Below are positions 21,153 through 25,690 of a DNA stretch of 64,000 bases, piece after piece. This DNA is from Sulfurimonas xiamenensis (lineage in GTDB: Bacteria; Campylobacterota; Campylobacteria; Campylobacterales; Sulfurimonadaceae). The stretch is from assembly GCF_009258045.1 (NCBI RefSeq), contig NZ_CP041166.1, positions 1,612,001 through 1,676,000 on the forward strand, read 5' to 3'. The notes below the pieces were generated by a model, which was not told the DNA's origin, searched no databases, and was given only the letters and a program-made list of their open reading frames with translations. The position numbers were made by a program, and so were the translations under genes. Within the stretch, counting starts at the first letter, position 1, and each line of letters begins with the position of its first letter.

Positions 21153-21842
21153 ATGAAAAACTTCACACTTTCAATAGCAACGGTTTTGGCGTTAAGTACA
21201 TTTGCAGTAGCAAGTGAAGATATAAAGCCGACAGTTGGAGCGTCAGCTTCAGAAAGTGGCTTTTATATTGGTGGTGCATATAGTATGGTAAAAAGAGATA
21301 TGAATATGCATCGTAATTATGGGTATACAGAAGGTAATGATTATAATTACTATGATTCATATAACTATGATAATAATGCTTATATGCTTCAAGCTGGTTA
21401 TCAGTTCAACCAATATATTGCTATAGAAGGAAGATATTGGGGTGCAATAGACTCACAAGAGTCAACTTATACAAGATATATAAATGGAGAGCTTGACTAT
21501 ACTGGTGACTGGAGCGATGGAGACTGGAGTGCTTGGGGTATCTATATCAAACCTATGTATCCGGTAACAGAAACTTTTAGCGTTTATGCTTTACTGGGTT
21601 ATGGAAATGTTTCTATAGATGATGAGTGGTATAATGACGAAAATCTCCTAGATGAAAATGTATTCCAATGGGGTATTGGTGCATCTTATAGCATTGCAGA
21701 AAATACTTCTTTGTTTATAGATTATGTAAGATTATGCAAAGATGAAGGTGATTCATATGTCGATGGTGGTTATGACTATAACACGTATGATCTTGATATT
21801 TCTATTGATACAGTAAATATAGGCCTAAGCTATAAATTCTAA
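21153..21842 (+). CDS. Outer-membrane beta-barrel protein
   Basis: 229 residues with a clear signal peptide (residues 1-20, ending FAVAS). The mature part is rich in Tyr, Asp, Gly and Asn, with alternating aromatic strands (GYQFNQYIAIEGRYWG, FSVYALLGYGNVSID, NTSLFIDYVRL) and a terminal phenylalanine (LSYKF), as recognised by the BAM machinery. It fits the small OmpA/OmpW-type eight-stranded barrel group. The extracellular loops are very acidic and tyrosine-rich. The function is unknown. A strong palindromic terminator follows. Confidence 0.8.
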   Translation: MKNFTLSIATVLALSTFAVASEDIKPTVGASASESGFYIGGAYSMVKRDMNMHRNYGYTEGNDYNYYDSYNYDNNAYMLQAGYQFNQYIAIEGRYWGAIDSQESTYTRYINGELDYTGDWSDGDWSAWGIYIKPMYPVTETFSVYALLGYGNVSIDDEWYNDENLLDENVFQWGIGASYSIAENTSLFIDYVRLCKDEGDSYVDGGYDYNTYDLDISIDTVNIGLSYKF

Positions 21843-21850
21843 ATCTCATT

Positions 21851-21874
21851 CTTTCAAGCTATATAGCTTGAAAG
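21851..21874 (+). terminator. Terminator between convergent genes
   Basis: Perfect 24-base palindrome starting CTTTCAAGC, an 11-bp stem with a minimal loop, followed by a T-run at 21887-21894. It lies 9 bp after the outer-membrane protein stop and could also end the converging ATP-grasp transcript. Confidence 0.8.
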
Positions 21875-21902
21875 ATGACTAACCACTTTTTTTCTGTAAT
21901 AT

Positions 21903-22925
21903 CTATACTGTTACATTATTGCGCAAGAAATCTTTAGAGCTGTTTTTTTCTAATATCATTTTGATCAATGCCTGACGAATTGTTTCAATACAATCTTTAA
22001 AGATATAACCCTTAGTTTGAAGAAGAATGCCCATACTGGCATTAATTTCAAATACCAGTATGTTCATATCTTTATCAATATAACAATCAACACCAAAATA
22101 ATCAAGTTTTAATTTTTTATACATTTCATTAATCACATCTTTTATTTTTGGCTTTATTTCAACATTAAAAGATTTTAAAATTTTTTCTTCTTGACTCTGA
22201 TACTTTTTATTTTTCTCCATATACTCTCTGCTTTTACTATGGATAACCCAGCTATCGCTAAAAATTACATGGCGTATATACACTTCACCATCGACTACTA
22301 CAAGACGATATTTAGTATATACACCCGCATTATCCGAATAATCAACAAATTGTGTCAAATAATAATCTCTTCCATCCAAGGGAAATGCATAAAATTGTTC
22401 TGTTTTATCATCAACTCTTACCGTACTTATACCACCATGATCTCCTGCCTGTCTAAAAATCACAGGAAACTCAAAATGTTCTTTTTCAACTGTATCATAA
22501 ATATCAGATGGTGATTTAGGTTGGATTTTTACTGTTTTTGGAACATGCAGTTTATCAACCCCTTGCAGCAAGCGATAAATATTATCACGGGTAGTATTCA
22601 TAACATTTGCAGGAGGATTAAAAAAAGGGACTTTGTCTGAAATTGATTTATAGAAGTCATCTGCTTTCTTAAGTGTTATCTTATGTGTATCAGCATCTGA
22701 TATTTCATTGAAAATTGCAGAGACCATTATTCGTGGAAGTTCCTGATCTTCTGTAGTATCAAGAAGGATAGAAGATCGATTAAACAGATCATTTTTAAGA
22801 AAACTACCTATATTTGAACTACCAATGCTTTGCCATTTATAAACACCATTTTTATCAATCTCATAAACAAATGCTCTTTGATCATCTGGAACACCATTTA
22901 TAAATAAAATATTTTTTTTCATCAT
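21903..22925 (-). CDS. ATP-grasp ligase, copy 1
   Basis: 340 residues (or 339 from the second Met). The N-terminal 110 residues carry an NxPxxxxxTxRDxxYxLL region; the ATP-grasp core reads FPVIFRQAGDHGG, YLTQFVDY, KYRLVVVDGE, FSDSWVIHS and LDYFGVDC, ending in FEINA with metal-binding Glu and Asn. Related uncharacterised ATP-grasp proteins share the HGG, FVDY and SDxWxxH signatures. Such enzymes join a carboxylate to an amine or other nucleophile. Residues from about 98 to 296 are almost identical in DNA to the second copy at 24283-25281, while both ends differ. It overlaps the fusion gene by 4 bp. Confidence 0.8.
   Translation of the reverse strand: MMKKNILFINGVPDDQRAFVYEIDKNGVYKWQSIGSSNIGSFLKNDLFNRSSILLDTTEDQELPRIMVSAIFNEISDADTHKITLKKADDFYKSISDKVPFFNPPANVMNTTRDNIYRLLQGVDKLHVPKTVKIQPKSPSDIYDTVEKEHFEFPVIFRQAGDHGGISTVRVDDKTEQFYAFPLDGRDYYLTQFVDYSDNAGVYTKYRLVVVDGEVYIRHVIFSDSWVIHSKSREYMEKNKKYQSQEEKILKSFNVEIKPKIKDVINEMYKKLKLDYFGVDCYIDKDMNILVFEINASMGILLQTKGYIFKDCIETIRQALIKMILEKNSSKDFLRNNVTV
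22037..22632 (-). repeat. Near-identical direct repeat, unit 1
   Basis: Same sequence as 24393-24988 with two differences, at 22572 (G/A) and 22580 (T/C). The stretch 22037-22571 has no mismatch by eye. The offset is 2356 bp in the same orientation. Outside these borders the two genes diverge at once. Confidence 0.9.
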
Positions 22926-24286
22926 AAAACTCCTTTTGATACACCCAATATATTTCTAACTTCGCTTCCTGTCGCAATTTCTCTTTGTAATTCATTGGCT
23001 ATACGGACAATGCGCTTGATTAAATTTGTATTTGTTGCCAGTGTATTTTGTTTATAGTCATAATAAATCGAATCTTCTAAGCCTACTCTCACATGTCCTC
23101 CAGCTATAATAGCTGCTGTATTCATAGGTAATTGAAATCCACCAAGACCAGTAGCTGCCCAAATAGAATCTTTAGGCAATGCATTTAAAAGATGCGCTAG
23201 ATCTCCTATTGTTGCGGGAGCTGTATTAATGTTCCCTAGTAAAATATTGAAATATTTATTACCACTGATAATCCCATGACGTTCAAGGTATTTAGCTACA
23301 TTAATCATACCAGAATCAAATACTTCCATTTCAGGTTTGATCCCTTTCTCTTTCATTATCATGGCCAACTGCTGAATCATATCAAGTGAATTCATACTGG
23401 GACCTGTAGCAAAATTAAGAGAACCCAATGTTAGACTTGCCATATCTGGTTTTGCTTTACCTGTTAGATACAGTACCTCTGAGCGTTGTTCTATCTCTTT
23501 AACATTCCTTCCCGAAGTAGAAACACAACAAATAAGATCAGGCCTTTCACGGCGTATAGCAATGATCATCTCTTCATAATACCGAGCTTCATAAGTAGGT
23601 ATACCATCCGCATCTCTGGCATGCAAATGTACGATTCTAGCTCCTGCATCATAAACATCAATAGCATCTTTTACAATTTCATCAACACTAACAGGCACAT
23701 ATTTTGTACTTGTTTTTGTAGGTATCATTCCGGTCAAACATGCATTAATAATCAACGGAGAATAAGGTGAAAGCGGAACTGGATCATTATCATATATATA
23801 CTGCTGTTTTTTTGCATCTTTGAATTCTTTTTGTGCCATATGTACCTCAAGATCCAGTTCGAGTGTTGTCCAGTACTTTATCTTATCTAAACCAAAAGAG
23901 ATCAGTTTTGCTAATTTTCCGATTTCACGATAGCCATAATGTTTTTTGTACCACAAAATAATATCTGGACGATCCGCATTGGTAATTACTTTTTTGACTC
24001 CAGCTTTATACATTTCTTTAAGTCGTCTATCTTGTAATAATTTCCCAATACCTGAACCTTGGAATTCAGGATAAACTGCCAATAGTGTTGTTTTTCCTCT
24101 ACCACAAGATAATATTTTATATCCTGATACACCCACAATTTTATCATCAAGTTTTGCTACAAAAAAAGTATTGAAATCTATCATTTCCATTTCACTTGAA
24201 GGAATATGGTGCATATTCCATGGTCTTAACACAGCAATAATCTCTTTTAACTCACTCTGTTTAGCAGATTCAATCATAAAATTCAT
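22922..24286 (-). CDS. GNAT acetyltransferase-BKACE (DUF849) fusion
   Basis: 454 residues with two domains. Residues 1 to about 150 are a GNAT fold with the acetyl-CoA loop QGSGIG (AVYPEFQGSGIGKLL) and WYKKHYGY. From about 175 to the end lies a beta-keto acid cleavage enzyme domain: LIINACLTG, the zinc-site VHLHARD, the SLTLGSLNF strand, GLGGFQLPMNTAAI and a late Glu in VRVGLEDS. BKACE enzymes transfer the acyl part of a beta-keto acid to acetyl-CoA, making acetoacetate and an amino- or hydroxyacyl-CoA. The fused GNAT might act on the amine made or used. It overlaps both flanking ATP-grasp genes by 4 bp, so all three are probably translated together. Confidence 0.85.
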   Translation of the reverse strand: MNFMIESAKQSELKEIIAVLRPWNMHHIPSSEMEMIDFNTFFVAKLDDKIVGVSGYKILSCGRGKTTLLAVYPEFQGSGIGKLLQDRRLKEMYKAGVKKVITNADRPDIILWYKKHYGYREIGKLAKLISFGLDKIKYWTTLELDLEVHMAQKEFKDAKKQQYIYDNDPVPLSPYSPLIINACLTGMIPTKTSTKYVPVSVDEIVKDAIDVYDAGARIVHLHARDADGIPTYEARYYEEMIIAIRRERPDLICCVSTSGRNVKEIEQRSEVLYLTGKAKPDMASLTLGSLNFATGPSMNSLDMIQQLAMIMKEKGIKPEMEVFDSGMINVAKYLERHGIISGNKYFNILLGNINTAPATIGDLAHLLNALPKDSIWAATGLGGFQLPMNTAAIIAGGHVRVGLEDSIYYDYKQNTLATNTNLIKRIVRIANELQREIATGSEVRNILGVSKGVL

Positions 24287-25281
24287 ATTTTTGCTTTTTC
24301 TATCATTGCGATAATTGCATTTTTAATTATATCAATCTGTTTAGTCCATATGTTATTCTTGTCTTTTGCATTATTAACAAGAATATTCATATTGGCATTA
24401 ATTTCAAATACCAGTATGTTCATATCTTTATCAATATAACAATCAACACCAAAATAATCAAGTTTTAATTTTTTATACATTTCATTAATCACATCTTTTA
24501 TTTTTGGCTTTATTTCAACATTAAAAGATTTTAAAATTTTTTCTTCTTGACTCTGATACTTTTTATTTTTCTCCATATACTCTCTGCTTTTACTATGGAT
24601 AACCCAGCTATCGCTAAAAATTACATGGCGTATATACACTTCACCATCGACTACTACAAGACGATATTTAGTATATACACCCGCATTATCCGAATAATCA
24701 ACAAATTGTGTCAAATAATAATCTCTTCCATCCAAGGGAAATGCATAAAATTGTTCTGTTTTATCATCAACTCTTACCGTACTTATACCACCATGATCTC
24801 CTGCCTGTCTAAAAATCACAGGAAACTCAAAATGTTCTTTTTCAACTGTATCATAAATATCAGATGGTGATTTAGGTTGGATTTTTACTGTTTTTGGAAC
24901 ATGCAGTTTATCAACCCCTTGCAGCAAACGATAAACATTATCACGGGTAGTATTCATAACATTTGCAGGAGGATTAAAAAAAGGGACATGCTTAGAAACA
25001 GTTTTATAAAAACTATCCGTTTTCTTAAGTACATTTTTATGCGTATCCGCATCTGATATCTGATTAAAGACCGCATGAATCATTTGTCGAGGAAGTTCTT
25101 GTGTACCTTTTAAATCGAAGACTACATTATATTGGTCAAATAAATCATTTTTAAGAAAATTACTTAAATTTGTACCACCTTTTCCTCGCCATTTAATTAG
25201 ACCATTTTTGTCAATTTTTTGAATAAGCATTTTTCTATCATCTGGTATGCCATTTATAAACAAGATATTTTTTTTAAACAT
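24283..25281 (-). CDS. ATP-grasp ligase, copy 2
   Basis: 332 residues, same fold and motifs as copy 1 (FRQAGDHGG, FVDY, FSDSWVIHS, FEINA). The N-terminal 110 residues are similar but clearly diverged (GIPDDRKMLIQKIDKNG versus GVPDDQRAFVYEIDKNG), and the last 35 residues are unrelated in detail. The centre is essentially identical. It is the first gene of the three-gene operon, with AAAGGA before the ATG and a TATACT box at 25315-25320. Different ends with the same catalytic core suggest either different partners or substrates, or ongoing conversion between copies. Confidence 0.8.
   Translation of the reverse strand: MFKKNILFINGIPDDRKMLIQKIDKNGLIKWRGKGGTNLSNFLKNDLFDQYNVVFDLKGTQELPRQMIHAVFNQISDADTHKNVLKKTDSFYKTVSKHVPFFNPPANVMNTTRDNVYRLLQGVDKLHVPKTVKIQPKSPSDIYDTVEKEHFEFPVIFRQAGDHGGISTVRVDDKTEQFYAFPLDGRDYYLTQFVDYSDNAGVYTKYRLVVVDGEVYIRHVIFSDSWVIHSKSREYMEKNKKYQSQEEKILKSFNVEIKPKIKDVINEMYKKLKLDYFGVDCYIDKDMNILVFEINANMNILVNNAKDKNNIWTKQIDIIKNAIIAMIEKAKI
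24393..24988 (-). repeat. Near-identical direct repeat, unit 2
   Basis: Second copy of the tract at 22037-22632, two substitutions in about 596 bp. Recombination between the units would delete 2356 bp including the whole GNAT-BKACE gene and leave one chimeric ATP-grasp gene. Confidence 0.9.
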
Positions 25282-25314
25282 ACAATCCTTTCTTTGTCAC
25301 TATTATTCGCTCTA

Positions 25315-25320
25315 AGTATA
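25315..25320 (-). promoter_or_regulatory. Candidate -10 box of the ATP-grasp/BKACE operon
   Basis: TATACT 33 bp before the ATG of ATP-grasp copy 2. It lies between the dehydratase remnant's stop codon and the operon, so the operon does not depend on the broken gene upstream. Confidence 0.45.
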
Positions 25321-25376
25321 ATCATATATATTTAATAGTTTCTTAAATCTATATTAAATCCTACTACTTAAAAATA

Positions 25377-25527
25377 TCATCTATTTTTATTTCTTCGTCT
25401 AGTCTTTAACGATTCTACAAAAGCTTCAATCCTTGTACTTAACTGTCCTTGTTGGGAAGGACTATAATCGCTTTCAATGTACAAAATAGGAATGCCGGCT
25501 TTTTCCATAGCATCCAGTACACTAATC
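25377..25527 (-). pseudogene. C-terminal remnant of a 2-hydroxyacyl-CoA dehydratase (HgdB/BcrB-like)
   Basis: The last 49 codons of a frame with no start. It encodes [20 protein letters not shown], then [11 protein letters not shown], and ends in a basic tail. The pairing of a GIPxLxxExD strand with a TRIEAFxE helix is the C-terminal hallmark of the 2-hydroxyacyl-CoA dehydratase / benzoyl-CoA reductase subunit family. The frame is cut exactly where the IS3-type end begins at 25528. The family performs radical dehydration of 2-hydroxyacyl-CoAs in amino-acid fermentation or ring reduction. The original gene probably belonged to the same metabolic island as the BKACE operon. Confidence 0.65.
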
Positions 25528-25690
25528 TGTCAACCCTATTCTAGGCAAATAATTCAAACTATTGCCCAGCCATTTCTTTTTGTAACATCTGATTTTCAAA
25601 GTCAACGGGTGAGATATAATTATTCAAAGAGTGTAACCTTTGTCGATTATAAAATATTTCAATATATTCAAACATAGCTTCATTTGCTTA
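25528..25690 (-). mobile_element. IS3-family element remnant (one end)
   Basis: Begins TGTCAACCCTATTCTAGG, which looks like an IS3-type terminal repeat ending in TG, and continues into the 3' end of a transposase frame on the minus strand (25559-25687). The other end and most of the element are missing; sequence similarity stops near 25690. From 25691 to 25829 I see only AT-rich sequence and the hairpin at 25773-25807. Confidence 0.7.
25559..25687 (-). pseudogene. Transposase OrfB C-terminal fragment (IS3 family)
   Basis: 42 codons reading [20 protein letters not shown], then a short segment and SPVDFE, ending at TAG. The YIxxFYNxxRLHSxLxxxSPxxFE pattern is the C-terminus of the DDE integrase of IS3-type transposases. 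A TAA precedes the fragment, and no start or catalytic residues upstream remain. Confidence 0.85.

Follow-up and report, generated by a model that had tools for sequence, protein, structure and literature searches.

Two ATP-grasp ligases and a GNAT-BKACE fusion form a conserved operon in Sulfurimonas xiamenensis, a candidate module for an amide-linked product

Introduction

N-acetylglutaminylglutamine amide (NAGGN), a capped dipeptide, is synthesised with a GNAT and an ATP-grasp enzyme, and glutathione-type pairs combine a GCS2-like ligase (GshA) with an ATP-grasp (GshB). We describe here a three-gene operon of Sulfurimonas xiamenensis that recalls both. It lies in a 64,000-nucleotide stretch (the window; positions 1,612,001 to 1,676,000 of contig NZ_CP041166.1, G000:C1:1612001-1676000) of a complete 1.92-Mb genome, and encodes two ATP-grasp ligases (genes A and B) around a fusion (gene F) of a GNAT with a beta-keto acid cleavage enzyme (BKACE). 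In Sulfurimonas relatives, the ATP-grasp adjoining the fusion is similar to that of the NAGGN system, but here the fusion partner of the GNAT is a BKACE instead of an ATP-grasp, several ATP-grasps are present and the amidotransferase is missing. A fuller sister copy of the operon likewise pairs a GCS2-type ligase (gene D) with ATP-grasps; unlike in glutathione synthesis, its GCS2 domain aligns to no more than half the length of the Pfam profile (37.7 bits), the ATP-grasps are several and there is no sign of a glutamate or cysteine substrate. The nearest solved folds to B are those of RimK and LysX/ArgX, though at low identity, and the ATP-grasps of the operon score 25.6 and 27.9 bits against the RimK family alpha-L-glutamate ligase model TIGR00768, far under its cut-off of 143.4.

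For the BKACE part, the closest references are Kce of Cloacimonas and BsfD of the flavophos pathway. Kce Glu14 binds the substrate amine (PMC10470551), and Tyr145 is regarded as catalytic in BKACEs (PMC12871164). BsfD, a biosynthetic DUF849 protein, has Phe at the place of this Tyr, and it condenses and decarboxylates its substrate with no cleavage (PMC12871164). F shares with Kce the fold family, the Zn ligands and the equivalents of Arg226 and Asp231, but differs by Glu14 to Ile/Val, Tyr145 to Phe, Asn108 to Thr and the N-terminal GNAT. With BsfD it shares DUF849, the Phe and the Zn ligands; here, however, there are no phosphonate genes and a GNAT is fused, and decarboxylative Claisen chemistry in F would hold only by analogy.

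The enzyme parts are of known kinds; what is new is their arrangement, in which GNAT and BKACE are constantly fused and partnered by ATP-grasps. In the literature searched we found no published description of the cluster, no paper joining its domains and no characterised pathway with this gene order, in agreement with an earlier sequence-only reading of the window. We propose, tentatively and at a little short of an even chance, that the operon is a functional biosynthetic module for an N-acylated, amide-linked (peptide-like) small molecule or moiety.

Gene content of the operon

We found that A, F and B are transcribed in this order from the minus strand, with a 4-bp overlap at each of the two junctions (Table 1). 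The three overlapping genes of the sequence-only reading are borne out by these coordinates, and its two ATP-grasps around a GNAT-BKACE fusion by the domains, every one of which scored above its Pfam gathering score. A and B matched RimK-like ATP-grasp (PF08443) with 30.6-35.3 bits (gathering score 21). In F, the GNAT domain matched PF13508/PF00583 at residues 30-118 (PF13508, 36 bits against 27) and the BKACE domain matched PF05853 at residues 177-448 (E 1e-83, 281 bits against 24.8). The GNAT CoA-binding motif (Q/R-x-x-G-x-G/A) is present in F as QGSGIG, and its G77 and G81 were invariant across 15 aligned rows.

For the AlphaFold2 model of B (predicted local distance difference test, pLDDT, 91), the nearest structures were RimK, LysX/ArgX and glutathione synthetase, matched across some 260 residues at VIA Z 18-20 and 12-16% identity; RimK 5ZCT reached a VIA Z of 19.9. 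ATP-grasp ligases also serve in graspetide-like ribosomal peptide systems, and a weak similarity to PsnB was detected (E 0.03, VIA Z 15.9). We consider such a system highly improbable here: the fold comparison leans towards RimK and LysX rather than PsnB of the PsnB/MdnC group, the genes overlap, and we found no conserved small open reading frame in the block or upstream of it, where only about 96 bp are conserved.

Association of the fusion with ATP-grasp ligases

We surveyed 397 Campylobacterota genomes; the spread beyond this phylum comes from a single scan. ATP-grasps of the type of A (A-type) were present in 14 genomes and the fusion in 13, with both in 8, where 0.46 would be expected (p 2.5e-10, uncorrected for relatedness). 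In all 8 the two genes adjoin each other. An ATP-grasp-type ligase also adjoined the fusion at 13 of the 14 further loci examined, L152 being the exception. The neighbour is an A-type ATP-grasp in L004, L016, L017, L030, L061, L141, L142, L150 and L157. Where the A-type is missing (L153-L156) its place is taken by a cyanophycin-synthetase-like ATP-grasp, sometimes together with an ornithine-cyclodeaminase-like gene. On a Neptuniibacter contig, the fusion and the ATP-grasp are placed divergently. Recurrent neighbours in relatives, with roles in amino acid handling or metabolite tailoring, were GCS2, ornithine-cyclodeaminase-like, TauD, P450 and methyltransferase genes, which together with the ligases favour a small peptide-like metabolite.

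Within Campylobacterota, the two domains of F were always joined. All 14 BKACEs above the cut-off in the 397 genomes sit in frames of 450-501 aa and are therefore fused, and all strong GNAT matches lie within fusion frames. The sequence-only reading had named separate domain genes with no shared neighbourhood as evidence that would speak against it. It survives this test: on a phage contig (L225 3152-4379, IMGVR_UViG_3300035698_013362), GNAT and BKACE are two genes, but adjacent and overlapping by 8 bp. This contig carries genes of a contractile-tail phage (tail-sheath stabiliser, head-closure, clamp-loader and sigma-factor). The BKACE of L225 had no matches in the phage collection, and no A-type ATP-grasp was found on viral contigs. 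Searching plasmids with the whole fusion returned stand-alone BKACE matches only, none of them reaching 80% coverage.

The relatives raise the possibility of an osmolyte pathway like that of NAGGN, in which an amino acid capped by the GNAT would be joined to another by the ATP-grasps. In the Sulfurimonas relatives, the ATP-grasp adjoining the fusion is nearest to cyanophycin synthetase and NAGGN synthetase (TIGR03103, 83-119 bits), but these scores are far under the cut-off of 569 bits, and A, B and F themselves gave no match to this model. An asparagine-synthase-like amidotransferase was not seen beside the block, P450 and TauD neighbours would be unexpected, and a patchy presence in 13 of 397 genomes is odd for a core osmolyte. 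We regard this explanation as rather improbable.

Several loci related to parts of the module were also noted. L151 (9170-9755, G395:C26:12169-12754) holds a decayed copy of the cluster, in which ATP-grasp fragments overlap each other and the final 28 BKACE positions come after them. L141 (9615-12185) and L017 (2940-5587) share a conserved cassette of a TauD dioxygenase, a P450 and a 154-155-aa protein (that of L141 without Pfam match) beside ATP-grasps of this family. A stand-alone BKACE on a Streptomyces camelliae plasmid (L228 8299-10685, NZ_CP115301.1) is 47% identical to the F domain and is flanked by ribA and a methyltransferase gene, with the roseoflavin-type genes rosB and ribC close by; it is perhaps a flavin-related biosynthetic BKACE, comparable with that of flavophos. 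Another is found on a 188-kb viral contig (L226 2557-7873, IMGVR_UViG_3300032156_000001), surrounded by glycosyltransferase-, hexapeptide acetyltransferase- and methyltransferase-like genes, as judged by eye.

The BKACE domain

We mapped the residues of F by alignment to Kce (2Y7D) and aligned 15 fusions; the pocket claims rest on these alignments and not on the structure prediction of F, which was of medium confidence. The Zn ligands H220, H222 and E404 are present in all 15 fusions, and F of the window also retains R400 and D405. The Kce Glu14 position is Ile or Val in 15/15 (I188 in F) and the Tyr145 position is Phe, again in 15/15 (F323). We also looked for enzymes that could use acetoacetate. 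The genome had no match to the CoA-transferase family and one partial thiolase match (33 bits), which is not convincing, so acetoacetate would have no obvious use in this host.

These results make it doubtful that the BKACE forms acetoacetate and an amino- or hydroxyacyl-CoA, as had been suggested from the sequence. The comparison of pocket residues with substrate classes, also suggested then, succeeded in part: as aligned, the residues disfavour the cationic Kce substrate, but no finer class can be read from them. A catabolic BKACE, serving lysine fermentation or the use of other beta-keto acids with the remaining genes incidental, is very improbable, since both Glu14 and Tyr145 are replaced, the genome offers neither of the two acetoacetate-handling enzymes, and the domain is always fused to a GNAT and mostly adjoined by a ligase.

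A second copy and gene conversion

The sister copy, A'-F'-C-D-B', lies in the same genome 390 kb from the window locus. Its additional genes are C, a third ATP-grasp, and D; otherwise the two loci are collinear, and their alignment (84-89%) starts some 96 bp upstream of A and takes in an outer-membrane barrel gene at its other end. A 26-bp stretch, AAAAG[G/A]AGTTTTATGATGAAAAAAAA, occurs in near-identical copies at the F/C and D/B junctions of the sister and once at the F/B junction of the window. A clean deletion of C-D between these repeats, which would preserve the 4-bp overlap, explains the shortened window copy, although C-D may instead have been inserted into the sister. Loss is favoured because G469 carries an ATP-grasp/GCS2/ATP-grasp block resembling C-D-B'.

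Comparison of the copies gave ratios of nonsynonymous to synonymous substitution (dN/dS) of 0.04-0.13 at dS 0.25-0.4, by which both are judged to be under purifying selection. Within the window, the cores of A and B are 100% identical across about 500 bp, with a dS of 0.009 against 1.05 for the N-terminal parts; the C-termini differ too. A' and B' show the same pattern of matching cores and differing ends. The cores differ by about 10% between the two copies, which points to independent gene conversion at each of the two loci. On this pattern, substrate choice likely lies with the parts outside the converted tracts. The sequence-only reading, which had the window alone to go on, had missed the sister copy, the near-identical cores and the duplication of the barrel gene.

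The absence of C and D, together with the adjoining remnants of a dehydratase and an IS3-type transposase, could mean that the window operon is a decaying, non-functional duplicate. This is very unlikely, as its three frames are intact, the overlaps are preserved, dN/dS is low, and the order ATP-grasp, F, ATP-grasp is found in L017 as well.

Flanking features and surface proteins

The features of the window locus are collected in Table 1. The hairpin between the barrel gene and B is likely a terminator serving both. The sequence-only reading had taken the dehydratase remnant as a sign of a larger island. The remnant is real, but homology between the copies ends at 25377, where it starts, so we assign the dehydratase and IS3 remnants to the landing site rather than the island; that the island was larger is supported instead by C and D of the sister copy. 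Two relatives also differ in the genes that they carry beside the conserved bcp-cytochrome segment.

Table 1. Coordinates of the operon and its surroundings in the window
Feature	Position	Strand	Description
Gene A	24283..25281	-	RimK-like ATP-grasp ligase of 332 aa; opens the operon; dN/dS against sister copy 0.10
Gene F	22922..24286	-	GNAT (about residues 1-150) fused to BKACE/DUF849 (about 175-450), 454 aa; dN/dS 0.058
Gene B	21903..22925	-	RimK-like ATP-grasp ligase of 340 aa; differs from A in its N- and C-terminal parts; dN/dS 0.134
Core of B	22020..22620 (approximate)	-	Gene-conversion tract, about 98-100% identical to core of A; core dS 0.009
Core of A	24376..24976 (approximate)	-	Gene-conversion tract, other conversion partner
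F/B junction repeat AAAAGGAGTTTTATGATGAAAAAAAA	22912..22937	-	Single copy in window; two near-identical copies flank C and D in sister; proposed deletion scar
Region upstream of A	25282..25377	-	About 96 bp kept in sister copy; putative promoter and ribosome site; lacks a conserved small open reading frame
Hairpin between barrel gene and B	21850..21875	.	Perfect, 11-bp stem; -14.1 kcal/mol, z -4.7
Outer-membrane barrel gene	21153..21842	+	OmpA-like; tail to tail with B; co-duplicated; adjoins cluster in G439, G446 and G469 too
Dehydratase remnant	25377..25529	-	2-hydroxyacyl-CoA dehydratase subunit; PF06050 C-terminal 38 residues, E 5e-12; outside duplicated block
IS3-type transposase remnant	25559..25675	-	C-terminus, PF13333; beside dehydratase remnant

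The barrel gene and other surface proteins suggest an alternative role for the module, the decoration of a protein or glycan exposed at the surface. In this case F would make and transfer a short acyl group, and the RimK/LysX-like ATP-grasps would add amino acids to an acceptor such as the barrel or an autotransporter. The nearest folds, RimK and LysX/ArgX, work on protein or carrier-protein ends, and many loci adjoin autotransporters, S8 lipoproteins or barrels; in L014 (5202-9118) an ATP-grasp gene overlaps by 4 bp that of a 976-aa autotransporter with a YncE-like propeller passenger. The barrel was duplicated together with the cluster, and the best matches of its family in the phylum adjoin the cluster. 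The GNAT-BKACE pair of L225, the single contig of this kind found, directly follows a fibre-like gene containing YadA head repeats, and the fusion or a BKACE stands among glycan genes in L152 and L226. However, secreted proteins were not significantly enriched among direct neighbours (15/50 against 45/212, p 0.13), and neighbours such as TauD, P450 and GCS2 are more in keeping with a metabolite. The barrel family is also common in Sulfurovaceae-like genomes without the cluster, and the barrel gene may therefore be a passenger. Decoration is an alternative that we think unlikely.

A more specific version would be a new modification system, in which GNAT-BKACE makes an unusual acyl unit by non-cleaving condensation and puts it on an amine, the core-homogenised ATP-grasps extend it with amino acids onto a surface protein or glycan, and phages carry the two-gene form beside a tail-fibre gene. 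We consider this version improbable.

Other islands contained similar components. Those of L048 and L061/L144 carry an autotransporter, a TIGR03032/DUF4915 protein, cyanophycin-synthetase-like and RimK-like ATP-grasps and methyltransferases, and look like a separate surface-modification system. Genes resembling those for 3'-phosphoadenosine 5'-phosphosulphate (PAPS) synthesis lie near ATP-grasps in L048, L154 and L021 and are absent from the window locus.

Discussion

We favour a biosynthetic module for an amide-linked metabolite because the domains and folds fit, because the association of fusion and ATP-grasp is conserved and purifying selection acts in both copies, because the GNAT CoA motif and the BKACE Zn ligands are retained, and because no acetoacetate sink was found and BsfD gives a biosynthetic precedent with Phe. 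A small amide-linked product, as put forward in the sequence-only reading, is the likeliest outcome here as well.

We infer the reactions, their order and the product from gene content and residues. The BKACE domain of F would be a Zn enzyme that, with acetyl-CoA, acts on a beta-keto acid other than the cationic substrate of lysine fermentation and yields an acyl or C-acylated unit. The fused GNAT would then move the acyl group from CoA onto an amine, with the fusion favouring channelling. A and B would turn carboxylates into acyl phosphates and couple them with amines; their shared gene-converted core would act as the ATP engine, and two different substrates are probably chosen by the N- and C-terminal parts, in which the two enzymes differ. 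With its third ATP-grasp and GCS2 ligase, the sister copy may carry out one or two further couplings.

Several points weigh against this proposal. The block shows no conserved exporter or regulator dedicated to it. The recurrent surface-protein neighbours suit decoration of a protein or glycan equally well. The model of F is of medium quality (pLDDT 69) and silent on channelling. Phe at the Tyr145 place is also shared by the uncharacterised DUF849 structures 3NO5, 3FA5 and 3CHV, so it is a pointer and not diagnostic.

If the proposal is true, the operon would represent a new architecture for amide-ligase biosynthesis, in which a beta-keto acid enzyme is locked to its own acyltransferase. BKACE enzymes would gain a likely biosynthetic role in a host seemingly unable to use acetoacetate, with Glu14 to Ile/Val and Tyr145 to Phe as residue signature. 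Paralogous ligases with a gene-converted core and distinct ends would offer a simple route to new substrate sets. Since the fusion is carried by relatives from genera that include cultured members (Sulfurimonas, Sulfurospirillum and Sulfurovum), these ideas are testable.

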